From the NCBI GenBank assembly GCA_030625775.1, contig DAOUQC010000008.1:1-64000 (forward strand): a stretch of 64,000 nt of DNA, read 5' to 3'. Under the pieces are notes generated by a model. It saw only the letters and a list, made by a program, of their open reading frames with translations, was not told where the DNA came from and made no database searches. The DNA comes from Verrucomicrobiota bacterium (GTDB lineage Bacteria > Verrucomicrobiota > Verrucomicrobiia > Verrucomicrobiales > DEV007). Shown piece after piece: positions 1,059 through 62,738 of this stretch. The position numbers and the translations under genes are program-made. Position 1 is the stretch's first letter, and each line of letters begins with the position of its first letter.

Positions 1059-2900
1059 TCACCTGCCCGCACGTCTTTTCCCATCCGCATCGTACACATC
1101 ACGCATGCGAATCGATTGACCATCCTCGGTCGCAATCCAATGGCTGTGACCACGCCGGAACTCCACCTGTGCGACACCCTTGTCATTCACCGGCCACGCT
1201 ACTGCCTGCAGAATACGCCCGGAGCGCCCTGTCCACGAATAGCTCTGCCACACAAAAAACGTAAAAAATGTGATCAATATTATAACAGCCAAAGATGAAG
1301 CTCCGGCACCTTTACGATGGAACAAGGGTGCCAGCAAAGCGTGAAAACCAATCGCAATTGCAGCGATAATCAGTGGTAGAGAATAGCTGAGATACCAATA
1401 ATAAAAATACAGTGAAGTAAAATGCTGGTGAAGCAAAGCAATCGCTGGCGATAGCAAAGCAAAGCCCAATACCATCGAAGCAGGTGACAGCCCCTGTTTG
1501 CGTGAGCACTGCCGCAGCCAAATCAGCCCACCAAAAATCAAAACTGGAATCACCAGCCATTGCAACGTCACAAGAACAGGCTCCGTTGGAGCAAAACGCT
1601 GCAACAGAACTTCCTGCAAAGTCGTCGCATCCGTGCGCAGATCGTAGATATCCTGCCCTGACGGGAAATTAGTGCCCGTGCTGTAGTGCGACCAAGCGTA
1701 GAATACCCAGAACGCTTCCAGGGGAATCATCTCAAAAACCTGTCGGAAGTGATAGCTCACCTGGGGCAAATGCGGGGAAATCAAAAACACATACAGCAAA
1801 CCGGTCACCGTATTCACCACCAGCATGCGTGAGATCGGCCCCAACAAACCCGCATCGCAAGAGCGAAACCACCTCCACAGAAGAAATCCCAGTAAACCCA
1901 CATTGAGAGCCAAAGCAAAATATACCGAGCCCGCATAGGACCAGATACAGAAAAAGATGCAAAAGGCAAAAGCAAACCAATGCCGCCAGCGATTGTCCCG
2001 CAAAGCCAGCCAGGCAAAAGCCACCGCCAGTGGCACAAACAACAACACCAAAGCATAACCACGGGCCTGCAGACTGTAATCGATATGCATCGGATGAATC
2101 GCCGCCAAAGCCGCCGCGATAAAGGCCCCTGTCCGCAAGCCCCACAACTGAAGTAGAAACCACAGACTGACAATCGAAGCCAAACCCGCCAACAATACCG
2201 GCATTCGCAGCGCCACCACACTGAAGCGCTGCCGGTCAGCACCTGTGACTGCCCGCCAGGTTCTCAAGCTGACCTGAGCCAACACACTGAGCATCACCGG
2301 ATTATTACCCAATTTATTCTCCCACAGCGCATCACTCCAGTCCGCTCCCTTCCACACCTCTTCCCCATCGGGATGAACTTCAAGAAAACCATGGAAATTC
2401 CGCCTCAGATTATCCTGCTCGTCAAAATACAAAGAACGATCCAAGTGAGGAACTCGCAAAAAAGCTGCTAAAACCAGAATCACAACAAGAGCCATATACG
2501 CAAACCGTCCTGGTTTAAAACCCGCTTCGGACAAATCAACATTTGATCTCGACAAACTCCCTGACCGTGGTCGGCGACATGTCAAGGGTAGCCACCAGCG
2601 CACCGTCAAGGCACAACCGCCCAATACCAGCCCGACAAACACAGCCCCCTGCCATAGCCCAATCTGGCGATAGATATCAACCCCCAGACTCTGACCACCC
2701 AAGGTTTCAAAATCAAAAAACACCGCGCGCGGCACCTCGTCTTTGGCCACTTCCAATCGTTTGGCCACCTTCTTGAGAGCATCTCCCTTCCACGGAGCCG
2801 GAGCCTGCCAGGCAAAATACAAAAAAGCTGCTGCCACTAAAGCCAATACCGCTGAAACACGGTTGACGATCGGGTCCGATGATAAAGGGAAACGAAGCAT
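1059..2900 (-). CDS. GT39/ArnT-like membrane glycosyltransferase
   Basis: A 613-residue polytopic membrane protein. The first transmembrane segment is at about residues 13-30, followed by about ten more, and a large loop after the second carries FDEQDN (about residue 159). An acidic DE pair in the first extracytoplasmic loop is the catalytic signature of the dolichyl-phosphate mannosyltransferase/ArnT superfamily (GT-C fold). Such enzymes move a sugar from a polyprenyl-phosphate carrier to a protein or glycolipid on the periplasmic side. The C-terminal 70 residues are soluble and probably periplasmic. The ATG at 2900 starts the frame. Acceptor and donor are unknown. It has no obvious operon partner; the next gene is divergent at 3033. 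Confidence 0.72.
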   Translation of the reverse strand: MLRFPLSSDPIVNRVSAVLALVAAAFLYFAWQAPAPWKGDALKKVAKRLEVAKDEVPRAVFFDFETLGGQSLGVDIYRQIGLWQGAVFVGLVLGGCALTVRWWLPLTCRRPRSGSLSRSNVDLSEAGFKPGRFAYMALVVILVLAAFLRVPHLDRSLYFDEQDNLRRNFHGFLEVHPDGEEVWKGADWSDALWENKLGNNPVMLSVLAQVSLRTWRAVTGADRQRFSVVALRMPVLLAGLASIVSLWFLLQLWGLRTGAFIAAALAAIHPMHIDYSLQARGYALVLLFVPLAVAFAWLALRDNRWRHWFAFAFCIFFCIWSYAGSVYFALALNVGLLGFLLWRWFRSCDAGLLGPISRMLVVNTVTGLLYVFLISPHLPQVSYHFRQVFEMIPLEAFWVFYAWSHYSTGTNFPSGQDIYDLRTDATTLQEVLLQRFAPTEPVLVTLQWLVIPVLIFGGLIWLRQCSRKQGLSPASMVLGFALLSPAIALLHQHFTSLYFYYWYLSYSLPLIIAAIAIGFHALLAPLFHRKGAGASSLAVIILITFFTFFVWQSYSWTGRSGRILQAVAWPVNDKGVAQVEFRRGHSHWIATEDGQSIRMRDVYDADGKRRAGR

Positions 2901-3032
2901 GATAGATTAACTGCGCCCACTTTATAATTACCACGCTGAATTGCACCGCAATTTTACCTGTTATGGCATTTTTCTTAGAAAGTTATTTTGAGAGAATGTA
3001 AACTCTGTTTTATTCAAGACTAGCCCAATACC

Positions 3033-4196
3033 ATGAAAAAACTCTTTATTATCCCCTTTCTGTCTCTCAATCTCACGAGCATCTTGCATTCCTCCGAACC
3101 TGCCGAATTCAAATGGCGTGAAGTCGAAATCGATCAAATCGAAATCGGCTATGGACTGCAATTGACTGACGTCGACGGAGACGGCAAAACCGATATCGTG
3201 CTGGCCGACAAAAAAACCATCCAGTGGTATCAAAACCCCTCTTGGAAAAAATACATCATCGCCAAAGATCTCACCAAACGAGACAATGTCTGCGTCACCG
3301 CCCGCGACATCGACGGAGATGGCAAATGCGAAATCGCTGTCGGCGGACAGTGGAACTTCCGTGAAACAAAAAAAGATGGTGCGGTGTTTTATCTCATCCC
3401 ACCCGAAGACCGCCGCCAGCTGTGGACGCCAGTGAAACTCTATAACGAACCCAACACCCATCGCATGCATTGGATCAAGGGCGCCGACGGGCAATTCACT
3501 CTGGCAGTCAAGCCCTTGCGCGGACGTGGCAGCGTGGAAGGAGTCGGACCGGGTTTGAAAATGCTCGAATACTTCAAACCGGACAATGTCAAAGGTGAGT
3601 GGAAAACCAAAGTCATCGGCGATTTCACTCACCTCTCCCACAATTTCCACCCCGTAAACTGGGATGACGACCCCGAGGAGGAACTGATCACCGCCAGCAA
3701 AGAAGGCGTCTGGCATTTTGATCGCCACAACGGCCAATGGATTTCGCGTCAACTGAGTAAGGACTTCGCTGGGGAGATCCGTGACGGTCGTCTGCCCAAT
3801 GGCAAGCGTTTCATCGTCACCGTCGAACCGATGCACGGTGTCAGCTCGTCGGTCTATGTCGAACCCGACGGCGGTGAGGGATTGTGGAAAAAACTTTCAG
3901 TCCTCGACGATGCTCTGATCGATGGTCACGCCATCGCCGTCGCCGACTACCTCGGCACCGGCTCCGACCAAATCGTCATCGGCTGGCGTGCCTTCCACCC
4001 CAAGGGAGCACCCGGGATCAAGCTCTTCACTCCGCTCGATCAAGATGGAAAAAAATGGCGTGAAACCAAAATCTCAGGAAAACAATTGGCCGTCGAAGAC
4101 ATCAAAGCCGCTGACCTCAATGGCGATGGCCGCGCTGACATCGTCGCTGCCGCCCGCCAAACCAAAAACCTCAAGATTTTCTTCAGCCAACCTTGA
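3033..4196 (+). CDS. secreted FG-GAP/VCBS repeat beta-propeller protein
   Basis: A 387-residue protein with a signal peptide (MKKLFIIPFLSLNL..., predicted cleavage near LHSSEP). The mature part holds FG-GAP/VCBS-type calcium-binding blades: DVDGDGKTDIVLAD (about 48-61), DIDGDGKCEIAVGG (about 95-108), and DLNGDGRADIVAAA near the C-terminus. The D-x-D-G-D-G loops are those that bind calcium in integrin-like propellers. The fold points to a periplasmic or outer-membrane-associated binding protein; no catalytic motif is visible. The ATG has no clear Shine-Dalgarno. It converges on the gene ending at 4270, and a 20-bp palindrome lies between the two. Confidence 0.75.
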   Translation: MKKLFIIPFLSLNLTSILHSSEPAEFKWREVEIDQIEIGYGLQLTDVDGDGKTDIVLADKKTIQWYQNPSWKKYIIAKDLTKRDNVCVTARDIDGDGKCEIAVGGQWNFRETKKDGAVFYLIPPEDRRQLWTPVKLYNEPNTHRMHWIKGADGQFTLAVKPLRGRGSVEGVGPGLKMLEYFKPDNVKGEWKTKVIGDFTHLSHNFHPVNWDDDPEEELITASKEGVWHFDRHNGQWISRQLSKDFAGEIRDGRLPNGKRFIVTVEPMHGVSSSVYVEPDGGEGLWKKLSVLDDALIDGHAIAVADYLGTGSDQIVIGWRAFHPKGAPGIKLFTPLDQDGKKWRETKISGKQLAVEDIKAADLNGDGRADIVAAARQTKNLKIFFSQP

Positions 4197-4233
4197 TTCG
4201 CATCCGGTCTGAATCACACATCAAGATACGTGG

Positions 4234-4253
4234 GACAAAACTCCGATTTTGTC
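4234..4253. repeat. 7-6-7 intergenic palindrome, copy A
   Basis: A perfect inverted repeat: arm GACAAAA, loop CTCCGA, arm TTTTGTC. It lies between two convergent genes (stops at 4196 and 4270). It has no T-tract after either arm. Its left flank and core (GTGG-GACA-AAACTCCGATT) closely match the copy at 39064-39087. It is a member of the dispersed family described in the findings. Confidence 0.8.
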
Positions 4254-4269
4254 ATCTTCGGCTTTTCTC

Positions 4270-6045
4270 TCACCGCTCCACATCCTTCACCGCAATTTTC
4301 AAATGCCGCGCTCGCGGAGATTTGCCCCAACCTCCACTGGCATCGATGAAGCCAATCCACAATTCGCCAGGCTGCTTTTCCAGAATAAAGGAATAAGTCG
4401 CGTATCCACGTGCAACAATTGTGGATTCCCCCCATGTCCGCCCCTCGTCACTGGAAAAAGCCAAATGCAATTCACTGCGGCGATCAGGATTCCAAGTGAG
4501 CGCCAAGCGGCCATCTGCCATCCGGATAACATGGCCCGGCGAGTGACTGCTTTTAATCTTACCCGGCTTCGCCTCCGACCAGGTGAGCCCGCCATCGCTT
4601 GAGAATGATTCCCAGAAAAACTTACGGGCCGTGCGAATCAGCATCCACAAACGTTTGTCTTTCAACTCGATCACACAGGGCTCTACTGCACCCGCATGAT
4701 CCCCTGCTCCTCCGATATCAATTTCATTACTTAGCTTCCAGGTCTTGCCGCCATCACTCGATACTGTTGTGCGTGAGACCAGTCTTCCCGGTTTGGCCAC
4801 ATAATGCGAAAAAGGCACCACTAGATTCCCCTTACTTGTCTCGGCCGCACCATTGGTACTGCCCGTGTAACCCTTGAAAATCATCTGCGGCTTGGTCCAG
4901 GTTTTTCCCTCGTCCTGGCTTCTCACTGTCCACAGGTCACTGCGGGTATTTTCGGTAGGGCTCTCTGTTTTCCGATCCCAGGCATGCTGTTGATAACCAA
5001 GAAAAAATACATGCAAGCTGCCATCCCGGGCGTGAAATGCGGTAGGGTGTGCCGAACGCCCCTCTGGCAAGCGAGTGATTTCTTGCTCAGGCAGCCAGGT
5101 CTTGCCTCCATCCCGAGTGATACGAGCGGCAATAAAACACTCACCCGGCTTACCCGCATAACTCGTCGGCGTTGAATAAACCGACATCACCGATTCATCA
5201 GCAAGCTTAAGCAGTGCTGGCCCAAGCACAGCGAGGTGATCCGTATCGTGGGTAATATTGGTCGAACGTGGATGCATCGTCACTCGATCACCACTGCCGT
5301 GCCAAACGGTGAACGGCTTGCGGGCAAAATGTTCATCTCCGGATGACAGTTGTTTGATCAATAAATCTGCGATAATCCGATGCCCGGGGTTTCCCGGGTG
5401 CATGCCATCAGGAGTGAGTGAACCAGCTTTGTGTTTAGGATCCGCATCATGGGCCTCAAAAGCTGCAAAAACATCCACCAACTCCACGCTTTCCTTTTTG
5501 GCAATTTCCCTCACCGTAGCAACGTAATCACGCAGGATCACATTAAAGCCGTCAACATCATCTGGCTGGTAAGGAGGCTTGCCATATAGTTCACGCGTCT
5601 TGTCGGCCCAATGAATCGGATTCGAGGTCATCAATACCACTCTTACTCCCTGCTTTTTCAAGAGCTGGATCATCTCGGTAATATTCTTCCGGTAATCAGC
5701 CAAAGATACCCGTGCTTTGTCAGCAGGTACTTTCCTCCACACATCCACCGCTGCGTCATTGATTCCGAACATGACCACCACCACATCCGGTTTTGCATCG
5801 AGCACGTCTTTTTTTAAACGAGCTGCGCCGTTCTTCGTCGTGTGGCCACCAATGCCTGCATTGATGATTTTAACATCCTTGCCGTCGAAGGAGAGTTCAT
5901 CAGCGAGCAAAGCCGAATACACGGTCGCGCTCCCGCGTTCGGCCGTAACGGAATCCCCGAAGGTAACGATGGTGACAGGCTCGACAGCAAATAACAGGGT
6001 GTTTTGGACACAGAAAAAAACGAGATAAAACAAAAAACGTATCAT
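4270..6045 (-). CDS. secreted SGNH-hydrolase / BNR-repeat sialidase-like fusion
   Basis: About 591 residues from the ATG at 6045, which puts a good signal peptide (MIRFLFYLVFFCVQNTLLFA) at the N-terminus; a GTG 13 codons upstream is less likely. Residues about 20-235 form an SGNH esterase: block I GDSVTAERG, block III VMFGINDA, and block V with DGMHPGNPGH (catalytic Asp and His). The C-terminal half is a BNR/sialidase-like propeller with Asp boxes (SxDxGxTW), for example SQDEGKTW, SSDGGKTW, SSDGGLTW and SSDEGRTW. I see no clear FRIP motif, so sialidase specificity is not proven. A fused deacetylase and exo-glycosidase acting on an acetylated glycan is the natural inference. Confidence 0.78.
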   Translation of the reverse strand: MIRFLFYLVFFCVQNTLLFAVEPVTIVTFGDSVTAERGSATVYSALLADELSFDGKDVKIINAGIGGHTTKNGAARLKKDVLDAKPDVVVVMFGINDAAVDVWRKVPADKARVSLADYRKNITEMIQLLKKQGVRVVLMTSNPIHWADKTRELYGKPPYQPDDVDGFNVILRDYVATVREIAKKESVELVDVFAAFEAHDADPKHKAGSLTPDGMHPGNPGHRIIADLLIKQLSSGDEHFARKPFTVWHGSGDRVTMHPRSTNITHDTDHLAVLGPALLKLADESVMSVYSTPTSYAGKPGECFIAARITRDGGKTWLPEQEITRLPEGRSAHPTAFHARDGSLHVFFLGYQQHAWDRKTESPTENTRSDLWTVRSQDEGKTWTKPQMIFKGYTGSTNGAAETSKGNLVVPFSHYVAKPGRLVSRTTVSSDGGKTWKLSNEIDIGGAGDHAGAVEPCVIELKDKRLWMLIRTARKFFWESFSSDGGLTWSEAKPGKIKSSHSPGHVIRMADGRLALTWNPDRRSELHLAFSSDEGRTWGESTIVARGYATYSFILEKQPGELWIGFIDASGGWGKSPRARHLKIAVKDVER

Positions 6046-6485
6046 GAGGGGCTTGGGCTTGGGCTTGAGAATTTGGTTGCCCACAAGTTGGGAACACCTT
6101 CAAAAAAATATCGCTGTTTGAAATTTCCGCAAGCAATCTCATCTGGTAACTTTTTGATACCAGACAAAATTGATCAGCTGCAAAGACAGAACTACTTCCC
6201 CTGCTCAGGGGCGATGGGCCAACACATACCCAGCCTAGTGCTTCGACCCCCTTAAAATGATGGGGATCGTAGGACAAATTTCCATATTTGTCAGGAGTGG
6301 TTTACGCTGGCCTTAAATGACAGAATCGGAGCCGGAGTGTAACGCAGACAGCCGGAGGCAATTCTGTCCTACGATGAATCCACCATCTTAAGCCTGACAA
6401 GACACTAAGCCAAAGGCCTGGTCACCCCAAAAAACAAATCAGCGCCGTAGGTGCGAGACAAATCCCCGCCTACCGAGATGCCTCG
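6046..6485. other. 440-bp intergenic stretch with nested inverted repeats
   Basis: No supported gene. The right part carries a composite repeat: a perfect 7-6-7 palindrome at 6273-6292 (GACAAAT / TTCCAT / ATTTGTC), GACAGAAT at 6319 paired with ATTCTGTC at 6361-6368, and an outer 11-bp pair ATCGTAGGACA (from 6266) with TGTCCTACGAT (from 6365). A weaker relative, with GTAGG and CCTAC flanks, lies at 6446-6472. It separates two genes on the minus strand. Confidence 0.7.
6266..6375. repeat. composite 110-bp inverted-repeat element, copy B/C
   Basis: Outer arms of 11 bp (ATCGTAGGACA and its reverse complement) enclose a complete 20-bp 7-6-7 palindrome at 6273-6292 and a second arm pair, GACAGAAT/ATTCTGTC. 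The internal segment CAGAATCGGAG is the reverse complement of the core CTCCGATTCTG seen at 39075-39085. It looks like two family members folded into one larger hairpin. No T-tract follows. Confidence 0.7.
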
Positions 6486-9158
6486 CTATTTCTTCCCCTT
6501 CTTTTTATCCGCCAGAGACTCGATATAGAGAATGATCGACTCAATCTGGTAATCCTTCAGCACTCCCAAATACGGTGGCATGCCCTCCCCCTTCTCTCCG
6601 AAGCCCTTCACCACATGGCGACCCGGATCGAGAATAGACTCCTTGAGATAAGCTCCATCCACTTTTTTCAATACCGAGCCATCAGTAAACTCGCGCCGTA
6701 TTCCCCACAGTCCTTTCCAAGTCGGCCCCACCGCCTGTCCTTCAGCCACTGCTTTCACCGCCGATCCGTCGACCGTGTGACAAGCCATGCAGCCGAACAT
6801 TTGATAAACTTTTTTCCCTTCTTCGACTGAAGGATCTGGTTCTTTCATTGTCATGCCCGCTCCTTTTTTCAAAGTCATGTCAGGTTTCAAATCTCCAAAA
6901 CCTTCTTTTTTTAAATCCATTTTTTTCAAACCATGAACCGTCAGGTAGGTGCTGTTAATGACAGGTAAATCCGTCTTCACCGCCATGCGATAAGTCACCC
7001 CCATCGACTGCACAACTTTCATATCCGGGATCGCCAAAAACACCGCTTTGCGATCCTCGGACAAATAAGCATTGGCCACTGGCAAACCTTCCTGACCGGG
7101 TTCGTCATCCAATTTGTAATTGCCTGACCCGTAATTTTTTGTCCGATGGTAATTCCAACGATCCACGGTGTAAGAGAACAGGCTGGTTGCGATGTCTTTC
7201 TCCAACTCGACTCCGAAACGCAACAACACGCCTTTGTCACACGATCTCACATCCAGCGGCACATAACTCGGTGCGCCCGTATAACGCACACGGTGCACAC
7301 CGCTGATATCGCCTGCAACCGTTCCCCATATTTTAAATCCACAGACGAACATTTGCCCGTCTATAGGATCTATCGACCCTTTCATCGTTGCTGAATTGAA
7401 TCCACTCAATACCGAACTCACCGCTCCCTGACGAGGTCCACCGGGTTGATCATCGATATAAACCTTGAACAATTCCGGGCGACTGTAACCAATATGAACC
7501 AGCGAATCATTCAGTGGGCCCATTTTTGCGTTGTGCGGCGTCACCTGGCTCGCCCCGGATTGATTGACAAAATGCGGGATCCACACCGCAGGCTCGGTGA
7601 TCTTTTTCGGATGTACCGGATTTTTCAAAGCCACCGGCAAATAACCATAATGATTCGCTTTTTCGATCACCTGAATCGGTGTGGCGGGAACCCAGTTGCC
7701 CTGCTGATCACTGGCAGTCACTCTTCCCGTCAGCATGTCACAACCAATGTAAGGCTGGCGTAATCCCCGGCCAATCACTTTGAATGAACGACCGTCCTTG
7801 GAGACCTCGACCACCGAACCGTTATATTTCACATTGGTTGCAACCGCCTGGCCGCCTTTGGCCAGAATAAAACCGCCGCCCGTTTTTTTTGCCATGTCCA
7901 TGGCAAACTCCCGGGTCTCTGCTGACTGCGCCACGACATTGGAAAAGTTCTCATAAAAATCCACCTGACCGTCTCCATCCTCGTCATGCAGCCGAACGAT
8001 GCCGTTTCGATCAGCCACATAAATCACATCATCCACAATCTGCAGCCCCTTCGGCTCGTGCAAACCGGAAGCATGGCGTTTCCACTTCACCTCCTTCATA
8101 TCCCCCGTCACCCCGGTCGCCAACCACACGTCCCCATCAAATCCAACCACTGCCAGACGGCCGTCGGAAAAAAAATCCAAAGCCCCGATACGCACATTCC
8201 GCTTCCAGGGATTCGGCACCGGTATGGGAATCCTGTCAATCACATAAGCGTCCTTGGAATCACTCATCACACCTTTGACCACGACCGCTTTCTGCCATGA
8301 CGGGTCGCTCCATTTTTCAGCTTTGGGTAAGGATGACTTGATGGGAGTCCCCGAGCCAAATGCCTGCACATGAGTCGTCGTCACTTCTTTATCAGCTGGC
8401 TCAATTCGAAAAGAAATCGCCTTTCCTGCTTTAACACCCAGAACCCGGTTGAGCACTTCTGTATGCGGAGCCACCACCCATTCAGAAATCATGCCTTTTC
8501 CATCAGCGGTCGCCGCCACCCGTTCTTTCACTTTCACTCCGCCGATTTCATACTCCAGAATCACTCCTCCCTTGATCAAACGCACTCCGCCCCATCTTCC
8601 CATTTCCACCGGCAGAGGCCCCATTCCCAATTCCCGCTCAACTCCACTGCGATTTTTGTCGCCCTTATACAAAACCGGAGCCATGGCCCGGGGATCCTTC
8701 AAATTCAACTTCCCTGCTCCAATCGTCCAACCCGAATAAATGCCATTCGCCAGCAGTGGATCACCTATCGGTTGCGGCAGAGTCTTTATCCCCGGCGGAG
8801 CTTTTTTGCTCGGCACCCGGTAGGAGCCCGCTGACATGCTGTTCATCGTCAGCCATTCACCGTTTTTGTTTTCTTTCCACACCAGAGCGAATCGCAAAAG
8901 ATCAGTATCAAAACAAGCATGCACTCCCTGACCAAGATCGAGGATAAGCCCACGCGGCGTCAGATTATTCGCCGGCCATTCCTTGCCCAGATCACGGGCA
9001 TCAAACGTCGTTGAAAAGTAAGGGAAACCCGGCTCCACAAACTCGGCAAAGTCCGATGGCAAAGCCGTGTGTTTTTTATCAGGACCTGCCCAACTGTTCT
9101 GGCCCATCAAACAAAATCCCGTCAAGGAGACCGCGGTGATTAGATTGCAAAGTTTCAT
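6486..9158 (-). CDS. DUF6797 / beta-propeller / cytochrome c protein
   Basis: An 890-residue exported protein with signal peptide MKLCNLITAVSLTGFCLMGQ. Residues about 35-150 match the DUF6797 pattern found in Verrucomicrobia and Planctomycetes (LPSDFAEFVEPGFPYF, LTPRGLILDLG, ACFDTDLLR, LANGIYSGW). The middle is a PQQ/NHL-like propeller (ADRNGIVRLHDEDGDGQVD). Near residue 795 the cytochrome c haem motif C-M-A-C-H appears, followed by a c-type domain with a likely axial Met in GEGMPPYLG. The role is probably periplasmic electron transfer coupled to oxidation of an unknown substrate. It stands alone; the next gene upstream on the same strand is 76 bp away. Confidence 0.8.
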   Translation of the reverse strand: MKLCNLITAVSLTGFCLMGQNSWAGPDKKHTALPSDFAEFVEPGFPYFSTTFDARDLGKEWPANNLTPRGLILDLGQGVHACFDTDLLRFALVWKENKNGEWLTMNSMSAGSYRVPSKKAPPGIKTLPQPIGDPLLANGIYSGWTIGAGKLNLKDPRAMAPVLYKGDKNRSGVERELGMGPLPVEMGRWGGVRLIKGGVILEYEIGGVKVKERVAATADGKGMISEWVVAPHTEVLNRVLGVKAGKAISFRIEPADKEVTTTHVQAFGSGTPIKSSLPKAEKWSDPSWQKAVVVKGVMSDSKDAYVIDRIPIPVPNPWKRNVRIGALDFFSDGRLAVVGFDGDVWLATGVTGDMKEVKWKRHASGLHEPKGLQIVDDVIYVADRNGIVRLHDEDGDGQVDFYENFSNVVAQSAETREFAMDMAKKTGGGFILAKGGQAVATNVKYNGSVVEVSKDGRSFKVIGRGLRQPYIGCDMLTGRVTASDQQGNWVPATPIQVIEKANHYGYLPVALKNPVHPKKITEPAVWIPHFVNQSGASQVTPHNAKMGPLNDSLVHIGYSRPELFKVYIDDQPGGPRQGAVSSVLSGFNSATMKGSIDPIDGQMFVCGFKIWGTVAGDISGVHRVRYTGAPSYVPLDVRSCDKGVLLRFGVELEKDIATSLFSYTVDRWNYHRTKNYGSGNYKLDDEPGQEGLPVANAYLSEDRKAVFLAIPDMKVVQSMGVTYRMAVKTDLPVINSTYLTVHGLKKMDLKKEGFGDLKPDMTLKKGAGMTMKEPDPSVEEGKKVYQMFGCMACHTVDGSAVKAVAEGQAVGPTWKGLWGIRREFTDGSVLKKVDGAYLKESILDPGRHVVKGFGEKGEGMPPYLGVLKDYQIESIILYIESLADKKKGKK

Positions 9159-46977: not shown

Positions 46978-48402
46978 CTAAACCTCCAGACCAAAAAACT
47001 TCTCCGCATTGCCATAACAAATCCGCTTCACCATGTCGCCGATCAGTTCTGCATCACGAGGCAGATCCCCACTCTCCATGTCCGCCCCCAGCCGATTGCA
47101 CAGAATACGCCGGAAATACTCATGCCGCGTAAAAGAAAGAAAACTCCTCGAATCCGTCAGCATACCCACAAAATGGGAAAACAGGCTGGTATTGGCAAAT
47201 ACCTTCATCTGCTCTTCCATCCCGTCCTTGCAGTCCATGAACCACCAGCTCGTTCCCAACTGCAAACGGCATGGAGCTTCACCCTCACAAGCCACTCCAC
47301 CCTGGAAGTTTCCCAACATGGTCGCCAGAGAATAATTATTCACCGGATTGAGCGGGTAAATGATCATCTTCGGCAAAGCCCCACGTTGCTGCAAGGCGTC
47401 CAGATAGTGTCGCAGGGCCTGGGCATGATTCACATCCGCCATCGAATCACAGCCCACATCACGGCCCAGCTTTTGAAACATCGTCGTACTGTTGTTGCGT
47501 TCGCATCCGATATGCAACTGCTTCGTCCAGCCCGCCGCCGCATCCAACTCTCCAAAAAACAACATCAGGTAATTACCAAATTTTTCCGTCTCGATCTCAC
47601 CTGCTGATTGGCCACTGCGCGTAGCCGCAAAAATTTTGTCTGCATCAGATTCCGAACATTCCGCATCAAAAATACGATACAAACCGTGATCCGAAATCCG
47701 CCCACCCATCTGATGAAAAAAATTATGGCGGCTACGGATAGCAGCTTTGAAACCCCTCAAGCTCGAGCAATCCACTCCACTCACCTCTGACAAGCTATCC
47801 GCCCAGTCATTAAATATACCGGCATCATCGACCCTCAGAGCTACGTCCGGACGAAAGGTCGGATAAACCTTCACTTCACAACTCACATCATCGCGAATCG
47901 CCGCATGGTGCTCCAGCGAATCCACCGGATCATCTGTCGTGCACAAAGCACGCACCTTCATCTTTTTCAGCAAACCGCGTGTCGAGAACTCCGGTTCCGC
48001 CAACTTCGCATTGCCCACTTCCCAAACCTTGTCCGCCGTAGCTGGGGAAAATAAATCATCGATTCCAAAATAACGGCTCAACTCCAAATGAGTCCAGTGA
48101 TACAAGGGATTGCCCATTGCATGCGGCACCGTCGCCGCCCAGGCATCAAACTTCTCCCGGGCTGAAGCATCGCCCGTACAAAAACGCTCAGGCGTCCCAT
48201 TGGCCCGCATCGCCCGCCACTTGTAATGATCCCCCGCCAACCAGATCTCCTGCAAATCTGCGAAACGTCGGTCACTGGCAATTTCATCCGGCGGCAGATG
48301 GTTGTGAAAATCCAAAATCGGCTCGTCTTCAGCAAAATCGTGATACAACTCACGAGCCGCACCACTCTGCAAAATAAAATCGTCGTGAATCAATGTGTTC
48401 AT
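46978..48402 (-). CDS. uxaC: glucuronate isomerase
   Basis: 474 residues from the ATG at 48402; a TTG five codons upstream is less likely. The UxaC pattern is clear: FILQSGAARELYHDFAEDEP, ILDFHNHLPPDEI (metal histidines), IWLAGDHYKWRAMRANG, and LCTTDDPVDSLEHH. The enzyme interconverts D-glucuronate or D-galacturonate with the ketose form in the cytoplasm, the first step of hexuronate catabolism. No uxaB, uxuA or kdgK is in view. Uronate use fits the sulfated-polysaccharide enzymes at 14-22 kb. Confidence 0.94.
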   Translation of the reverse strand: MNTLIHDDFILQSGAARELYHDFAEDEPILDFHNHLPPDEIASDRRFADLQEIWLAGDHYKWRAMRANGTPERFCTGDASAREKFDAWAATVPHAMGNPLYHWTHLELSRYFGIDDLFSPATADKVWEVGNAKLAEPEFSTRGLLKKMKVRALCTTDDPVDSLEHHAAIRDDVSCEVKVYPTFRPDVALRVDDAGIFNDWADSLSEVSGVDCSSLRGFKAAIRSRHNFFHQMGGRISDHGLYRIFDAECSESDADKIFAATRSGQSAGEIETEKFGNYLMLFFGELDAAAGWTKQLHIGCERNNSTTMFQKLGRDVGCDSMADVNHAQALRHYLDALQQRGALPKMIIYPLNPVNNYSLATMLGNFQGGVACEGEAPCRLQLGTSWWFMDCKDGMEEQMKVFANTSLFSHFVGMLTDSRSFLSFTRHEYFRRILCNRLGADMESGDLPRDAELIGDMVKRICYGNAEKFFGLEV

Positions 48403-48421
48403 CTTTTCCGAATTCAAAACT

Positions 48422-57528: not shown

Positions 57529-60500
57529 CTACCTCTTCCCTTCCTTAAGAATCGCGTGGGCGTGCTGGGCGAACAATCCACGCAAGTCATTTTCGTACTG
57601 GCGCAGAATTTTCTCGCCGAGGCCTTCGTGATCACCGCAGCGGTACAAAGCCCGGGCAAGAATGATTTCGCGTAACGGTTCGGAACGCTGTTCCTGACGC
57701 TCACTTTCGCCAATATTCGTGATGGCATAACCGCTCATCCCTTCTTGTGAGAGCAGCTCGGCCAAGGGTTGGGCACTTGACGGGTCCCGCTGGGCTTCCA
57801 GTGCCATTGCCACGGCACGGTGATGGGAAAACTCTTTTGTCTCATCGAGGCTTTTTACTTTCTCAATAATCTTGGGCAGACCTTCCGCGGCACCCGACAA
57901 ACCGAGCGCAATGATGTGTGAATCCAGTTGGGAAATGCTGCCGCCAAACTGACCCATACCACGAAAATTCCAACCTTCATCCCAGTCCTGGGTTCCCACC
58001 ATTTCCATTAATACAGAAGCCCCACCTGAATCTCCTAACATCCCTAGAATATTGGCATAGATGGCTTGTTGCTCCGGCTGATCTGATTTTTTGAAAGCCT
58101 CACGCAGAAGCGGCAGAGCCTTTTCCTTTTCTTCGAGCAGTATGGCAAGACCTCGATACCCCTGGATCACCGAGGTCACAGCCTGGGCAATCAAATCATC
58201 GTTCGCCGGACCCGAATCACTGGCCTTGAGCATTGATTCCGGCAGGGAACCGATCTCAACCAGGTGCTCCTGCAAGGTTTTGATATCAAGCGAACGAGTG
58301 GGAATTCCCTTTTTGGAAATCGTGGCGGCAGCCACCCCGGCGGCATAACCCTGGTTCTGGATGCAGGGCTGCATCCGCAGAATCGGCATTGAATCCCGGT
58401 GGGCACTGATTCCCAAACCTGTCACCAGGATGCCGTCAATGCCCTTGGGCAGCAAAGCCCGGTAAGGGACAGGTGCGGTCATGCTTTTTTTGTCAGGGAA
58501 ATCAATCAGGAAAATCGGATGAACGGTATAACCATGCGTATCAAAATTACTCTGATGGAGGGAAATGGTGTCATGCCAACTGCGTTGATTGATGATGTCG
58601 AGTGGGCTGATATAGGCATCCCCGACAATGCGCCGCCGCTCCCGGGTATCGATGAAGGAAGAGAGGTCATAGCTGTCGCGGTATTTTTTCCGTGCAGCGA
58701 CAATCATGCGCCATTGATCAACCGGGTCGGATTCATCGGCAAAGGAATAGTCCGTGTTGCGATAGCCCGTGCCCAGTCTCCTTGGAGAAAGTCCGGTTCC
58801 CTGCATCGCCACGTGATCCGCCGAGGTGGAAATAAAATCTGCTCCGGCAGCAATGGCGATATCCGAATTCCCAGTGGAATCCACTACCGTTCCAGCCAAC
58901 ACCACTCCCCTGCCCTGAGGAGTGGCAACAATCACTCCAGTGACTTTACCATCCTTGACCACGGCACCACAGGCCAGGGTGGAAAACCAGATCTCACCTC
59001 CGGCGGCGACGATTTCTCGACGCCATAATTCCCGTTTGGCGACCGGGTTCCAGCCGCCTTTCCGCTTCGGCCCGCCCATCTCCTTGATGCTGGTATCAAC
59101 CTCGACTGTGAAACCTTTTCGATAACCATGGTAATAAGTAGAAATCAAACCCTGGGTTCCAACTCCACCAAGATGATCCTGATATTCCAAAACAAGGGTG
59201 CGGGCACCTTTTCTAGCTGCCCCGATCCCGGCAGGAGCCCCTCCTGTTCCACCTCCCGCAACCACAACATCATAACTCCCCAGAATCGGTAGCGACCTCT
59301 CGGGTGATGCCACTACAGGTAGCCCCTGATAGGTAGGCCGCGTGCCATTGAGCGATTCGCGAAGCTCCCCAGGCGACTGTGATCCCTCTTCCATTTGGCT
59401 GAAAACCCTGACTTCTCCGGATGCTTGCCTGGACTTCGCCAGTTTGGCAGCCGCAGCTCCCACTCTTTTCCCAAGGCGCATCAGATTTAATGGCCTTAAT
59501 AATTTGGCTGCGGACTCGCGCGAGATGTCGGCGCATCCCCCCAGAACAAACAAACCTTCCTTTTTGGCGGCCTGGAAAACCGCAAGGTCAAGCTTCTCCA
59601 CATCCATATCCGAACCCTGATGCTTCGCTTTGGCCTTCATTGGATCCGGAGGCACTTGGAATAACACATCCGATTCATCGACCAGAGCGACATCGAATGT
59701 TTGTTCTCGTGCGATCACTTCAGCCCGGGCAAATGAGGCCGCACTGCTGTCGGGCATGTCAATTTTCAGCTGATAGACAAAAACGTCGTGAGTCCCCTCT
59801 TGCGAATAAAACTTCACCTCTGCCTTCTCTGCCGAAATCCCCTTTCCCTGGCGGACAACTCCCCCGGCAACAATACGCTGGAAAATCCGGGGCCCGGATG
59901 GGTAAACTTGGAATTCCACTCCGGCAGCACGCGCTGCAGTCGCCCGCTGGGTAGCATCAATGATCACTTTGGCCCGCACAGCCTGGCGCCCGGCACGGTT
60001 GCTCATCACCACTCCGGCGACCTGGCCCTTGCCATCCACCAGCGCATCCGTCACCATCGAACCATAGAGATAGGTGACGCCCGCTTCCAGCAGCGCCTCG
60101 TCCAATGCGATCTTCACCTGCATGGGTGTGGCTGGCGGTTTCACTGCATTCGGATCCACCGTCACTTCCCGGTCTTCAACCAGAACCAGTTCTCCCAGCA
60201 GCATCCGCTCGGCTTCGGGTGACTTTTTCACCTTCACTTTGACAAAACGACAGGGTTGCTTCACCGGCAGGGACCACTGCACCAGGGCGTCGCCGCCATC
60301 TGTCTTTTTAACGGTTTCAATTTTTCCAAGGTCCCGCCAGAGTTTTCCGTTTGGAGACGTCCACACTTCGACCTCATCGACGACAAACTCCCCGGCGCGT
60401 TCGAAAGAAAACAGATGCAGCTCCTTGACCCGAGCCATTTTACCAAGATCGGCGATCACGGTGGTGTCCACATCGTATTGAACCGAATCAGAAGCAGCCT

Positions 60501-60951
60501 TTTGCCACAGGGAATTGTTCAGAATCGCATTCTTGGAATCTGCATGTACTTTGTTGGCTTCTTGATCTGCTTCATAACTGTAATCCAGCCGATTGGGAAA
60601 TCCCTGCACCGGTGTAGCTCGTTCAAAAATTGCCTTCTCCAACTGACTGACCGGTGTCTCCGACTCGTCCAACCATAATCGCAGGGTTCCCGCCACATCT
60701 TCTCCCAGATAGGGACGCGGCGCAGCAAGGAATACCGAAGCGCCCCCCTTGGCCGCTTCCACAGCAGCAGTGACCGCGCCGGTCGAGCCGCCCACCACTA
60801 CAACATCGACATCGTAGGCGATGGGAATGTCCCGCGCAGATTCAATCACACTTTCGGCAGCGTTGACCGATGGGAGATAAAGTCCGGCAATAGCCAGAAT
60901 GAGGGTTTGAACACTCTTTTTGAGGAGAGAGGAAAGTGATGAGGGCTTCAT
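57529..60951 (-). CDS. secreted double FAD-dependent oxidoreductase with galactose-binding insertion
   Basis: 1140 residues from the ATG at 60951, giving a signal peptide (SVQTLILAIAGLYLPSVNA). Two FAD/NAD-binding Rossmann motifs are seen: VVVVGGSTGAVTAAVEAAKGG (about 50) and VVVAGGGTGGAPAGIGAARKG (about 562). The first domain is interrupted at about 145-260 by a discoidin-like galactose-binding module (TTVIADLGKMARVKELHLFSFERA, CRFVKVKVKKS). The second belongs to the FAD_oxidored type common in secreted proteins of this lineage. About 220 C-terminal residues look like HEAT-type helices. It is divergent from the NosR-like gene, with 86 bp between the starts. Confidence 0.82.
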   Translation of the reverse strand: MKPSSLSSLLKKSVQTLILAIAGLYLPSVNAAESVIESARDIPIAYDVDVVVVGGSTGAVTAAVEAAKGGASVFLAAPRPYLGEDVAGTLRLWLDESETPVSQLEKAIFERATPVQGFPNRLDYSYEADQEANKVHADSKNAILNNSLWQKAASDSVQYDVDTTVIADLGKMARVKELHLFSFERAGEFVVDEVEVWTSPNGKLWRDLGKIETVKKTDGGDALVQWSLPVKQPCRFVKVKVKKSPEAERMLLGELVLVEDREVTVDPNAVKPPATPMQVKIALDEALLEAGVTYLYGSMVTDALVDGKGQVAGVVMSNRAGRQAVRAKVIIDATQRATAARAAGVEFQVYPSGPRIFQRIVAGGVVRQGKGISAEKAEVKFYSQEGTHDVFVYQLKIDMPDSSAASFARAEVIAREQTFDVALVDESDVLFQVPPDPMKAKAKHQGSDMDVEKLDLAVFQAAKKEGLFVLGGCADISRESAAKLLRPLNLMRLGKRVGAAAAKLAKSRQASGEVRVFSQMEEGSQSPGELRESLNGTRPTYQGLPVVASPERSLPILGSYDVVVAGGGTGGAPAGIGAARKGARTLVLEYQDHLGGVGTQGLISTYYHGYRKGFTVEVDTSIKEMGGPKRKGGWNPVAKRELWRREIVAAGGEIWFSTLACGAVVKDGKVTGVIVATPQGRGVVLAGTVVDSTGNSDIAIAAGADFISTSADHVAMQGTGLSPRRLGTGYRNTDYSFADESDPVDQWRMIVAARKKYRDSYDLSSFIDTRERRRIVGDAYISPLDIINQRSWHDTISLHQSNFDTHGYTVHPIFLIDFPDKKSMTAPVPYRALLPKGIDGILVTGLGISAHRDSMPILRMQPCIQNQGYAAGVAAATISKKGIPTRSLDIKTLQEHLVEIGSLPESMLKASDSGPANDDLIAQAVTSVIQGYRGLAILLEEKEKALPLLREAFKKSDQPEQQAIYANILGMLGDSGGASVLMEMVGTQDWDEGWNFRGMGQFGGSISQLDSHIIALGLSGAAEGLPKIIEKVKSLDETKEFSHHRAVAMALEAQRDPSSAQPLAELLSQEGMSGYAITNIGESERQEQRSEPLREIILARALYRCGDHEGLGEKILRQYENDLRGLFAQHAHAILKEGKR

Positions 60952-61037
60952 AATTCTTAGATCAGGTGATGAAAGTTTAAATTGAGTTCCGCCCATTGCA
61001 AAGAATACTACAGGGTCAATTTGCGGTTCCCCACAAA

Positions 61038-62738
61038 ATGCCCACCGCCAAAACCAAGATCCGTCGCTATCTCGTCCATTCCTATCGGATCGGATTGTTC
61101 GTATTGTTGATTTTCATGATCCACCAGCAGCACCGCTGGTTCATGGCTCAGAAACAAGGAGCGATGAAGCAGTTGGTCAGCGTCGAAAAAGTCGCCGCCT
61201 TTTTCCCGCAAGCCAGCAGCCTGGGTGACTGGGATCCCGGCCACAGGGGGCAAAATGTTTTTGATGCTAAAGGAAACAAACTGGGACATGTCATTCAGAC
61301 TTCCCCCGAAGCTGATAATATTTATGGGTTTTCCGGCCCGAGCAATACAATGATTGCCTTTTCAAAGGAGCTAAAAATTCTTGGCATTTCTGTCATACGC
61401 AGTGACGACACCCGTGAACATCTCGCCGCCCTGCTGAAGGATGAGCTCTTCCTGACTCAATGGAATGCGTTGAACGCTATGGAAGCCGCCGCCATGCACG
61501 AGGTTTATGCCGTTTCCGGAGCCACCCTAACCAGCAGTTCCATCGCCGACGGAATAGCCCGGCGACTGGGAGGTCGTGCGAAAAAATCCCGTTTCCCCGA
61601 AGCGATCACCCTTGAGGAAATCCAGCCCTTTCTGGAAGGTGCTGCAGCCCTCGAAAGCAGCTCCGGACAACCCTATCTGAAGCGTATTCTCGATGCCACC
61701 GGCACTCTCATCGGCTACGCCTGCCGCACTTCACCGCACGCCGATCACATGATCGGGTATCAGGGCCCCACCGATGTACTGTTCATTCTCGACGCGAAAG
61801 AACGTGTCAGCGAACTAGTGATTCGCAGCAGCTACGACAACGAACCCTTTGTCAGCTATCTCATTGAGGACGAATATTTTTTTAATAACTTCAAAGGTTT
61901 TCGCCTCGATGAAATCAGCCAGATCGAGATCGGTGAAGAAGAAATCTATGCGATTTCCAGTGCTACCAAAACCAGTATAACCGTCGCTGAAGGACTCGTC
62001 GAAAGTGCCACTGAAATCATCAAGGTTCACGAAGAGCTTGCTCCCCAAGCGCTGCTCAATCTACGGATGCGTGACTACGGCACCATCGTCATGGTGCTGT
62101 TTGCTCTGGTGATCGCCCACAGTCGTTTACGTGGCAAGCGGTGGCTGAGAACCGCCTTCCAACTTACACTGGTGATCTATCTTGGTTTCATCAATGCGGA
62201 TATGGTTTCGCAGGCCCAACTGGTTGGCTGGGCAAAATCCGGCATCCCCTGGCAGGTGGCCCCTGGTTTGATTTTCCTGACCGCCGCTGCCTTTATTACT
62301 CCGGTTTTTTCCGGCAGGCAGGTTTATTGTACCCATCTCTGTCCCTTCGGCGCCTGCCAGGACCTGGTGGCCGGACGACTTCCCTATCAATTCAGTATCA
62401 AAGGCAAATGGGAAAAAATCCTGGTCTGCATTCCCGTTTTCCTACTGGCCTGGAGCCTGATCGTGACCTTGGGCCACCTGCCATTCAGCCTGATTGCCAT
62501 CGAACCTTTCGACGCTTTTGTATTTCGCATCGCCGCTTGGACCACCCTCACCCTTGCTATCACCGGTTTGATCGCTTCGCTGTTCGTCAAGCGGGCCTAT
62601 TGCCGCTATGCCTGCCCGAGCGGGGCGCTGCTTAAATACCTCCGCTTTGGCGGCACGGCGAGCGAACGCTTCGGGCTGCGGGATGTTATCGCCACCGCTT
62701 TTGTCCTGCTGGCCATGGCAATGCTTGTCTGGAGATAG
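61038..62738 (+). CDS. NosR-like membrane protein with two FMN-binding domains and Cys clusters
   Basis: 566 residues from the ATG at 61038. One N-terminal helix is followed by two periplasmic FMN-binding domains. The first has SGATLTSSS (about 160), the same core as the covalent FMN attachment site of NqrC/RnfG-type proteins; the second has SSATKTS (about 307), with Gly replaced by Ser. About five transmembrane helices follow, with the cluster motifs CTHLCPFGAC (C431, C435, C440) and CRYACPSGA (C522, C526). The C-terminal tail stops before any ferredoxin domain, unlike true NosR. It likely moves electrons between the membrane and a periplasmic flavoprotein. Confidence 0.85.
   Translation: MPTAKTKIRRYLVHSYRIGLFVLLIFMIHQQHRWFMAQKQGAMKQLVSVEKVAAFFPQASSLGDWDPGHRGQNVFDAKGNKLGHVIQTSPEADNIYGFSGPSNTMIAFSKELKILGISVIRSDDTREHLAALLKDELFLTQWNALNAMEAAAMHEVYAVSGATLTSSSIADGIARRLGGRAKKSRFPEAITLEEIQPFLEGAAALESSSGQPYLKRILDATGTLIGYACRTSPHADHMIGYQGPTDVLFILDAKERVSELVIRSSYDNEPFVSYLIEDEYFFNNFKGFRLDEISQIEIGEEEIYAISSATKTSITVAEGLVESATEIIKVHEELAPQALLNLRMRDYGTIVMVLFALVIAHSRLRGKRWLRTAFQLTLVIYLGFINADMVSQAQLVGWAKSGIPWQVAPGLIFLTAAAFITPVFSGRQVYCTHLCPFGACQDLVAGRLPYQFSIKGKWEKILVCIPVFLLAWSLIVTLGHLPFSLIAIEPFDAFVFRIAAWTTLTLAITGLIASLFVKRAYCRYACPSGALLKYLRFGGTASERFGLRDVIATAFVLLAMAMLVWR

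Follow-up and report, generated by a model that had tools for sequence, protein, structure and literature searches.

Does a divergent pair of genes in a Verrucomicrobiota genome encode a route by which electrons pass between the membrane and an exported flavoenzyme? The pair lies towards the end of a stretch of 64,000 nucleotides (contig DAOUQC010000008.1, positions 1 to 64,000; hereafter the window). It consists of a gene for a predicted exported flavin adenine dinucleotide (FAD) oxidoreductase, here called the c1 enzyme (57529..60951, minus strand; ATG at 60951, stop at 57529, 1140 amino acids (aa)), and a gene for a membrane protein of NapH/NosR/RdhC type with two flavin mononucleotide (FMN) domains, here called MEM (61038..62738, plus strand; 566 aa from the ATG at 61038). 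The open reading frames confirm the positions given in a preliminary description of this DNA, as well as the 86 bp between the two divergent ATG starts; the MEM frame stays open upstream to a TTG at 60996. An extracytosolic flavin electron-transfer system had been proposed in that description, and the proposal is supported by the pairing of the genes, the conservation of the predicted FMN-attachment threonines and the link to the flavin transferase ApbE. We consider it probable that the pair forms a heme-free extracytosolic flavin relay that carries electrons specifically for an exported FAD oxidoreductase of the PF12831 superfamily. Comparison of genomes shows that the gene for MEM is kept beside that for a predicted exported PF12831 FAD enzyme, and often beside ApbE.

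Conservation of the gene pair

A scan of species genomes for MEM yielded 13 loci outside the genome of the window, and in seven of these a large FAD enzyme with 61-73% identity to that of the window divergently adjoins MEM. The divergent c1-MEM pair is thereby found at eight loci, seven of them Verrucomicrobial (the window included) and one in a metagenome-assembled genome (MAG) labelled as Planctomycetes, with the same arrangement throughout. In a sample of 59 genomes of the window's family, a close c1 enzyme (>2200 bits) and a top-tier MEM (>930 bits) occur in an identical set of six genomes and in no others, and the two are adjacent in 6/6. Five of these six pairs are contigs already present in the first scan, and the number of independent pairs, including that of the window, is eight. 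The preliminary description had staked the idea of a paired system on homologues being found as neighbours. Their adjacency, both in the family sample and at the eight independent loci, upholds the pairing, but the exact pair is confined to one clade (the eight loci) and the commoner partner of MEM is another PF12831 enzyme.

The promoter region shared by the two genes contains a dyad, TTGCAAA-N16-ATTTGCG (60996..61025), which is a candidate operator. Arms of GCAAA/TTTGC type, 21-22 bp apart and at a near-constant position, are present in six of the eight c1-MEM promoter regions, and the 14-base form of the dyad has a single occurrence in the 4.88-Mb genome. From this dyad it may fairly be inferred that a common regulator would act on the genes for the c1 enzyme and MEM.

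Exchange of the partner enzyme

The large c1 enzyme accompanies MEM at eight out of 42 two-FMN MEM loci, a second enzyme type, c2, does so at 21, and neither is found nearby at 13. The c2 enzyme, the usual partner, is a predicted exported PF12831 protein of ~760 aa with a Golvesin_C module, encoded on the same strand as MEM and nearly overlapping it, often with ApbE next. A PF12831 gene lies within ~2 kb of MEM at 29/42 loci, compared to an expected adjacency of ~1%, a rough estimate derived from ~13 PF12831 genes per genome. Proteins of MEM type (two- or single-FMN) and c2 also co-occur, and do so where the two are not adjacent: both are present in 36 of the 59 family genomes and neither in 20, with three discordant, although these genomes are related and the counts are not independent events. 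Counted per genus, both are present in 12 and neither in six, with no discordant case.

In the MEM tree the c1-partnered loci are nested within the c2-partnered loci and a single c1/c2 change is required, which implies replacement of the enzyme beside a relay that was retained. At the level of the genes, the comparison shows that the window's clade has swapped c2 once for the large two-domain c1 enzyme, while MEM was retained. Planctomycetes-labelled or unplaced MAG sequences (L011, L012, L013 and L015) are likewise nested in the Verrucomicrobial MEM tree, suggesting inter-phylum transfer or mis-binning.

The preliminary description had suggested co-occurrence with ApbE as a check. In a sample of 388 genomes of the phylum, ApbE is present in 19/19 genomes with a strong MEM, versus 297/388 overall, and it adjoins MEM or is fused to it at 19/42 two-FMN loci. 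One of the fusions (L077) is a single protein of 870 aa, and single chains of 800-880 aa joining MEM to its flavin transferase were noted at L075, L076, L077, L078 and L120. In the window's genome ApbE is encoded by a single copy, on contig C101. On another contig the same genome carries a further locus (L088; G000:C126:28000-41000) where a single-FMN MEM (5828-7093, minus strand), a Gfo/Idh protein and a c2 FAD enzyme (2448-4736, minus strand) are consecutive, with genes on the opposite strand that by eye are glycolate-oxidase-like. At L113 (G415:C556) the MEM frame is broken by a stop (447 + 104 aa) and the adjacent c2 is intact, possibly by decay or an assembly error, and at L072 and L073 MEM is followed by a protein of ~1800 aa in place of the FAD enzyme, in L072 a subtilase according to Pfam.

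The membrane protein

Pfam assigns MEM to PF12801 (Fer4_5; 1.1e-16) and PF04205 (FMN_bind; 5.3e-12), with two stretches each, and detects no DNA-binding or signalling domain. A first transmembrane helix, placed at residues 11-29 by hydropathy (61068..61124; helix 4-42 in the structure model), is followed by two FMN_bind domains, both predicted to be periplasmic, at 61215..61607 and 61635..62027. The latter corresponds to the second PF04205 stretch and to model strands 204-265, and the best Foldseek matches of the MEM model, which bear on the first domain, are RnfG and NqrC (probability ~1, E 0.003-0.08). The exact SGATLTS core described earlier for the first domain occupies residues 160-166 (61515..61535), with the codon of Thr165 at 61530-61532. 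Its counterpart in the second domain is SSATKTS at residues 307-313 (61956..61976), with the codon of Thr312 at 61971-61973; most relatives have SGATxTS at this site, and the window protein and one relative have Ser instead of the Gly. Conservation of the attachment Thr, on which the preliminary description had also made its proposal depend, is close to complete, the predicted residue at site 1 being Thr in 41/42 and Ser in 1/42 of the two-FMN homologues, and that at site 2 Thr in 42/42.

The remainder of the protein is a membrane module of about six further helices at residues 342-564 (62061..62729), delimited by hydropathy and model helices. It holds the two Cys motifs already recognized, both of the form CX3CP: C431 and C435 (62328..62345), with Cys in 42/42 homologues, and C522 and C526 (62601..62618), with Cys in all 41/41 having sequence there. 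The positive-inside rule would place the two CX3CP motifs on the cytoplasmic side and the FMN domains outside. As the attachment residues, the Cys pairs and the gene pairing are all conserved, the pattern goes beyond what chance would give.

The exported enzyme

The c1 enzyme matches PF12831 (FAD_oxidored) with E=2.7e-69 and 234.9 bits, the gathering cutoff being 27. Hydropathy points to a Sec-type signal peptide at residues 1-36 (60844..60951; this and the following features on the minus strand), hydrophobic over 14-36 and then reading VNA-AE, and a similar leader is present in all eight c1 orthologues, in agreement with the exported 1140-aa flavoprotein that had been predicted. The protein has two FAD_oxidored-type domains, and the unusual split of the first, also pointed out earlier, is due to the insertion of a discoidin (F5/8 type C) module. 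The N-terminal half of domain 1 (residues 45-103; 60643..60819) has a degenerate Rossmann motif, GGSTGA; the insert follows at residues ~110-262 (60166..60624; PF00754 at 139-245), and the C-terminal half, recognized by Pfam and family comparison, at residues 270-515 (59407..60144). The match to F5/8C has E=4e-5 in the window protein and 2.6e-10 in a relative (L093), and the insert is modelled as a beta sandwich with a predicted local distance difference test score (pLDDT) of mostly 80-92. It is found in 23/30 c1-family sequences and is absent from seven forms of 860-1203 aa. Some proteins of the two-domain FAD/HEAT family that lack the insert (L105, L106 and L107) have no obvious signal peptide and are perhaps cytoplasmic.

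Domain 2 (residues 557-890; 58282..59283), a PF12831 match, reads GGGTGGAPA...E589...TGN, and its Gly566, Gly568, Thr569, Gly571 and Glu589 are conserved in 30/30 sequences (the window and 29 relatives). Domain 1 has neither the usual acidic residue where beta-2 ends nor a TGxxD signature, and the canonical FAD-binding signature is found only in domain 2. One canonical FAD site, in domain 2, is therefore expected rather than two. A HEAT-like C-terminal region (residues 905-1140; 57532..58239), all-helical in the model, matches PF13646 slightly under the cutoff in the window protein and over it in L104.

The structure model of the c1 enzyme, built on an 11-sequence alignment, has a mean pLDDT of 59 and can be used for no more than the discoidin insert and some parts of the Rossmann domains. 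Searched with Foldseek, it retrieves generic flavoenzymes, including flavocytochrome c3, complex II flavoproteins and many oxidases, and a sequence search of the PDB gave just generic FAD enzymes and RnfG. As the model is poor and its matches generic, no substrate is called from structure. An assignment to the fumarate-reductase-like PF00890 enzymes was rejected, since that model aligns only over positions 1-36 of 414, which is the Rossmann motif.

Relation to known systems

The NapH-like class of flavinylated systems combines a membrane protein carrying FMN_bind and PF12801 with an extracytosolic oxidoreductase and a nearby ApbE, according to the main text of Meheust 2021 (eLife, PMC8238504), which lists NosZ, PceA, NirS and the alcohol oxidase ExaA among the varying partners. 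MEM has PF12801 together with a predicted extracytosolic PF04205, its flavinylation motif [S/T]GA[S/T]xT is conserved at both sites, and it clusters with ApbE (19/42) or with an extracytosolic PF12831 oxidoreductase (29/42), ApbE not being adjacent in the window. It differs from the systems of that class in having two FMN domains in one protein and PF12831 FAD enzymes as partners; the main text of PMC8238504 names neither PF12831 nor Verrucomicrobia. In RdhC/PceC of organohalide respiration a single FMN domain separates helix 1 from the membrane module; there are two CX3CP motifs, and a C-terminal 4Fe-4S ferredoxin domain is lacking (PMC5928378). MEM resembles it in layout, in the two CX3CP motifs and in the lack of a C-terminal Fe-S domain, but has two FMN domains and is partnered by a FAD enzyme instead of a reductive dehalogenase; the rdhA-type family was not seen among the top 25 of 39 MEM-neighbour families. 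Judged by its predicted domains, the MEM-c1 system belongs among the NapH-like flavinylation systems, with a layout like that of RdhC to which a second FMN domain is added.

NosR shares with MEM a periplasmic FMN domain and a CX3CP membrane module, and the NosR model aligns over residues 365-546. An identification of MEM as NosR was rejected at 68.8 bits against a curated cutoff of 1000; the genome's own NosR, with 532.5 bits, is also under this cutoff of 1000 but aligns across the whole model. Unlike NosR, MEM lacks two C-terminal 4Fe-4S ferredoxin clusters, there being no Cys after C526 and the protein ending 40 residues on, and nosZ is not in the flanks within the window but on contig C152. 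The earlier observation that no nos, nqr or rnf gene is nearby held for the examined flanks of the pair, and the true nos operon is on that other contig (L089; G000:C152:30000-45000), where a TAT-type nosZ with nosR, nosD and ABC genes makes nitrous oxide reduction probable. A uronate-isomerase-like gene, recognized by eye at window 46978-48417 (minus strand), ~9 kb from the pair, has no evident link to it.

As in UrdA and Listeria FrdA, an exported FAD enzyme would be tied to the membrane via covalent FMN, here by prediction, but in those systems a PF00890 enzyme carries the FMN domain or is fed by it, whereas here the enzyme is of PF12831 and the FMN sites are on MEM. In the library searched, no report linking PF12831 with FMN_bind was found, and just one paper names PF12831 by accession.

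Mechanism, direction of electron flow and alternatives

In the mechanism proposed, ApbE, encoded elsewhere in the genome, would attach FMN to Thr165 and Thr312, as suggested by the motif, its conservation and the gene fusions. The FAD in c1 domain 2 would exchange electrons with both covalent FMNs of MEM, and the membrane module, in which the two CX3CP motifs lie, may link the FMNs to the quinone pool or to a cytoplasmic partner, by analogy with RdhC, NosR and NapH. As to direction, there is a slight preference for inward electron flow, a carbohydrate-like substrate being oxidised, because the enzymes bear modules of sugar-binding type and c1 relatives lie near sugar-catabolic genes. Among 91 neighbours tallied for c1 relatives without MEM are seven Gfo/Idh (Gfo/Idh/MocA) proteins, five 3-keto-disaccharide hydrolases and five sulfatases, and GH88 also occurs. 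This sugar signal is weak, since it stems mainly from c1 relatives without MEM and these bacteria have many genes of this kind.

The same relay might run in the reverse direction, with quinol as the electron source of MEM and with the exported enzyme as a terminal reductase of some external acceptor; NosR-NosZ, PceC-PceA and the urocanate/fumarate reductases work in this way. We regard this as a serious possibility, if a somewhat improbable one. The characterised relatives of the module, NosR and PceC, mostly serve reductases, and there are fumarate-reductase-like flavoproteins that receive electrons from FMN domains (PMC8238504, PMC5928378); flavocytochrome c3 and complex II flavoproteins are also among the c1 Foldseek matches, though so are many oxidases. 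However, the same class serves the alcohol oxidase ExaA as well (PMC8238504), the c1 enzyme is by Pfam without the fumarate-reductase cap domain, PF00890 covering 36 Rossmann residues only, and the F5/8C and Golvesin_C modules suggest sugars, as do genes nearby for 3-keto-disaccharide hydrolase, Gfo/Idh and sulfatase.

Several observations weigh against the dedicated relay proposed here. The c1 family is found in 82/388 genomes of the phylum, and among these a strong MEM is present only in that of the window, so that in other classes the enzyme must have other electron partners or can work without MEM; two relatives (L137 and L103) adjoin ApbE. No PF12831 gene is near MEM at 13/42 loci (one of them at a contig end), ApbE is not adjacent to the pair in the window's genome, the model of the c1 enzyme is poor, and the neighbour domains tallied at MEM-linked loci are mixed, with no consistent pathway or substrate. 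The first two of these observations, and the ~13 PF12831 proteins encoded in the window's genome, would also fit an association by history only, in which the c1 enzyme is independent or redox-neutral and MEM belongs functionally with other exported flavoenzymes, or with a reductase of disulfides or metals. This appears unlikely, since the two genes are adjacent in every case of the family sample, all eight loci have one divergent layout and six of them the dyad, and MEM has a neighbour from a single enzyme superfamily before and after the partner exchange. That MEM is a redox sensor or regulator of the enzyme gene rather than an electron conduit recalls NosR, which was originally described as a regulator and whose NCBIfam model name still says so, but this is very improbable, as the lack of a DNA-binding or signalling domain, the two conserved FMN sites, the CX3CP pairs and the ApbE fusions fit electron transfer.

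Implications for flavin-based electron transfer

The dedicated relay would bear on a broader matter, as for most NapH-like flavinylated systems it is not known which reaction they serve (PMC8238504). PF12831 becomes a defined partner superfamily: its genes adjoin those of the relay, co-occur with them and share operons with ApbE, and partners can be seen to have been exchanged in nature. MEM looks like a heme-free electron socket that takes different outside enzymes; its neighbour, maintained across relatives, is an exported FAD enzyme of either of two types. A much bolder and rather doubtful extension would be a widespread heme-free respiratory branch in Verrucomicrobia and Planctomycetes, in which exported PF12831 flavoenzymes oxidise carbohydrate-type substrates and pass the electrons to one interchangeable double-FMN relay, the c1 enzyme representing a new class of dehydrogenase. 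Periplasmic sugar dehydrogenases (LacABC and the pyrroloquinoline quinone (PQQ) enzymes) are GMC or PQQ enzymes with cytochrome acceptors; they are a possible functional analogue if the substrate is a sugar, and none of their domains is found in the pair. If such a branch exists, it would be the double-FMN counterpart of these cytochrome-linked sugar dehydrogenases. The function of the exported PF12831 enzymes, and the fate of their electrons, can now be tested with two proteins and ApbE.

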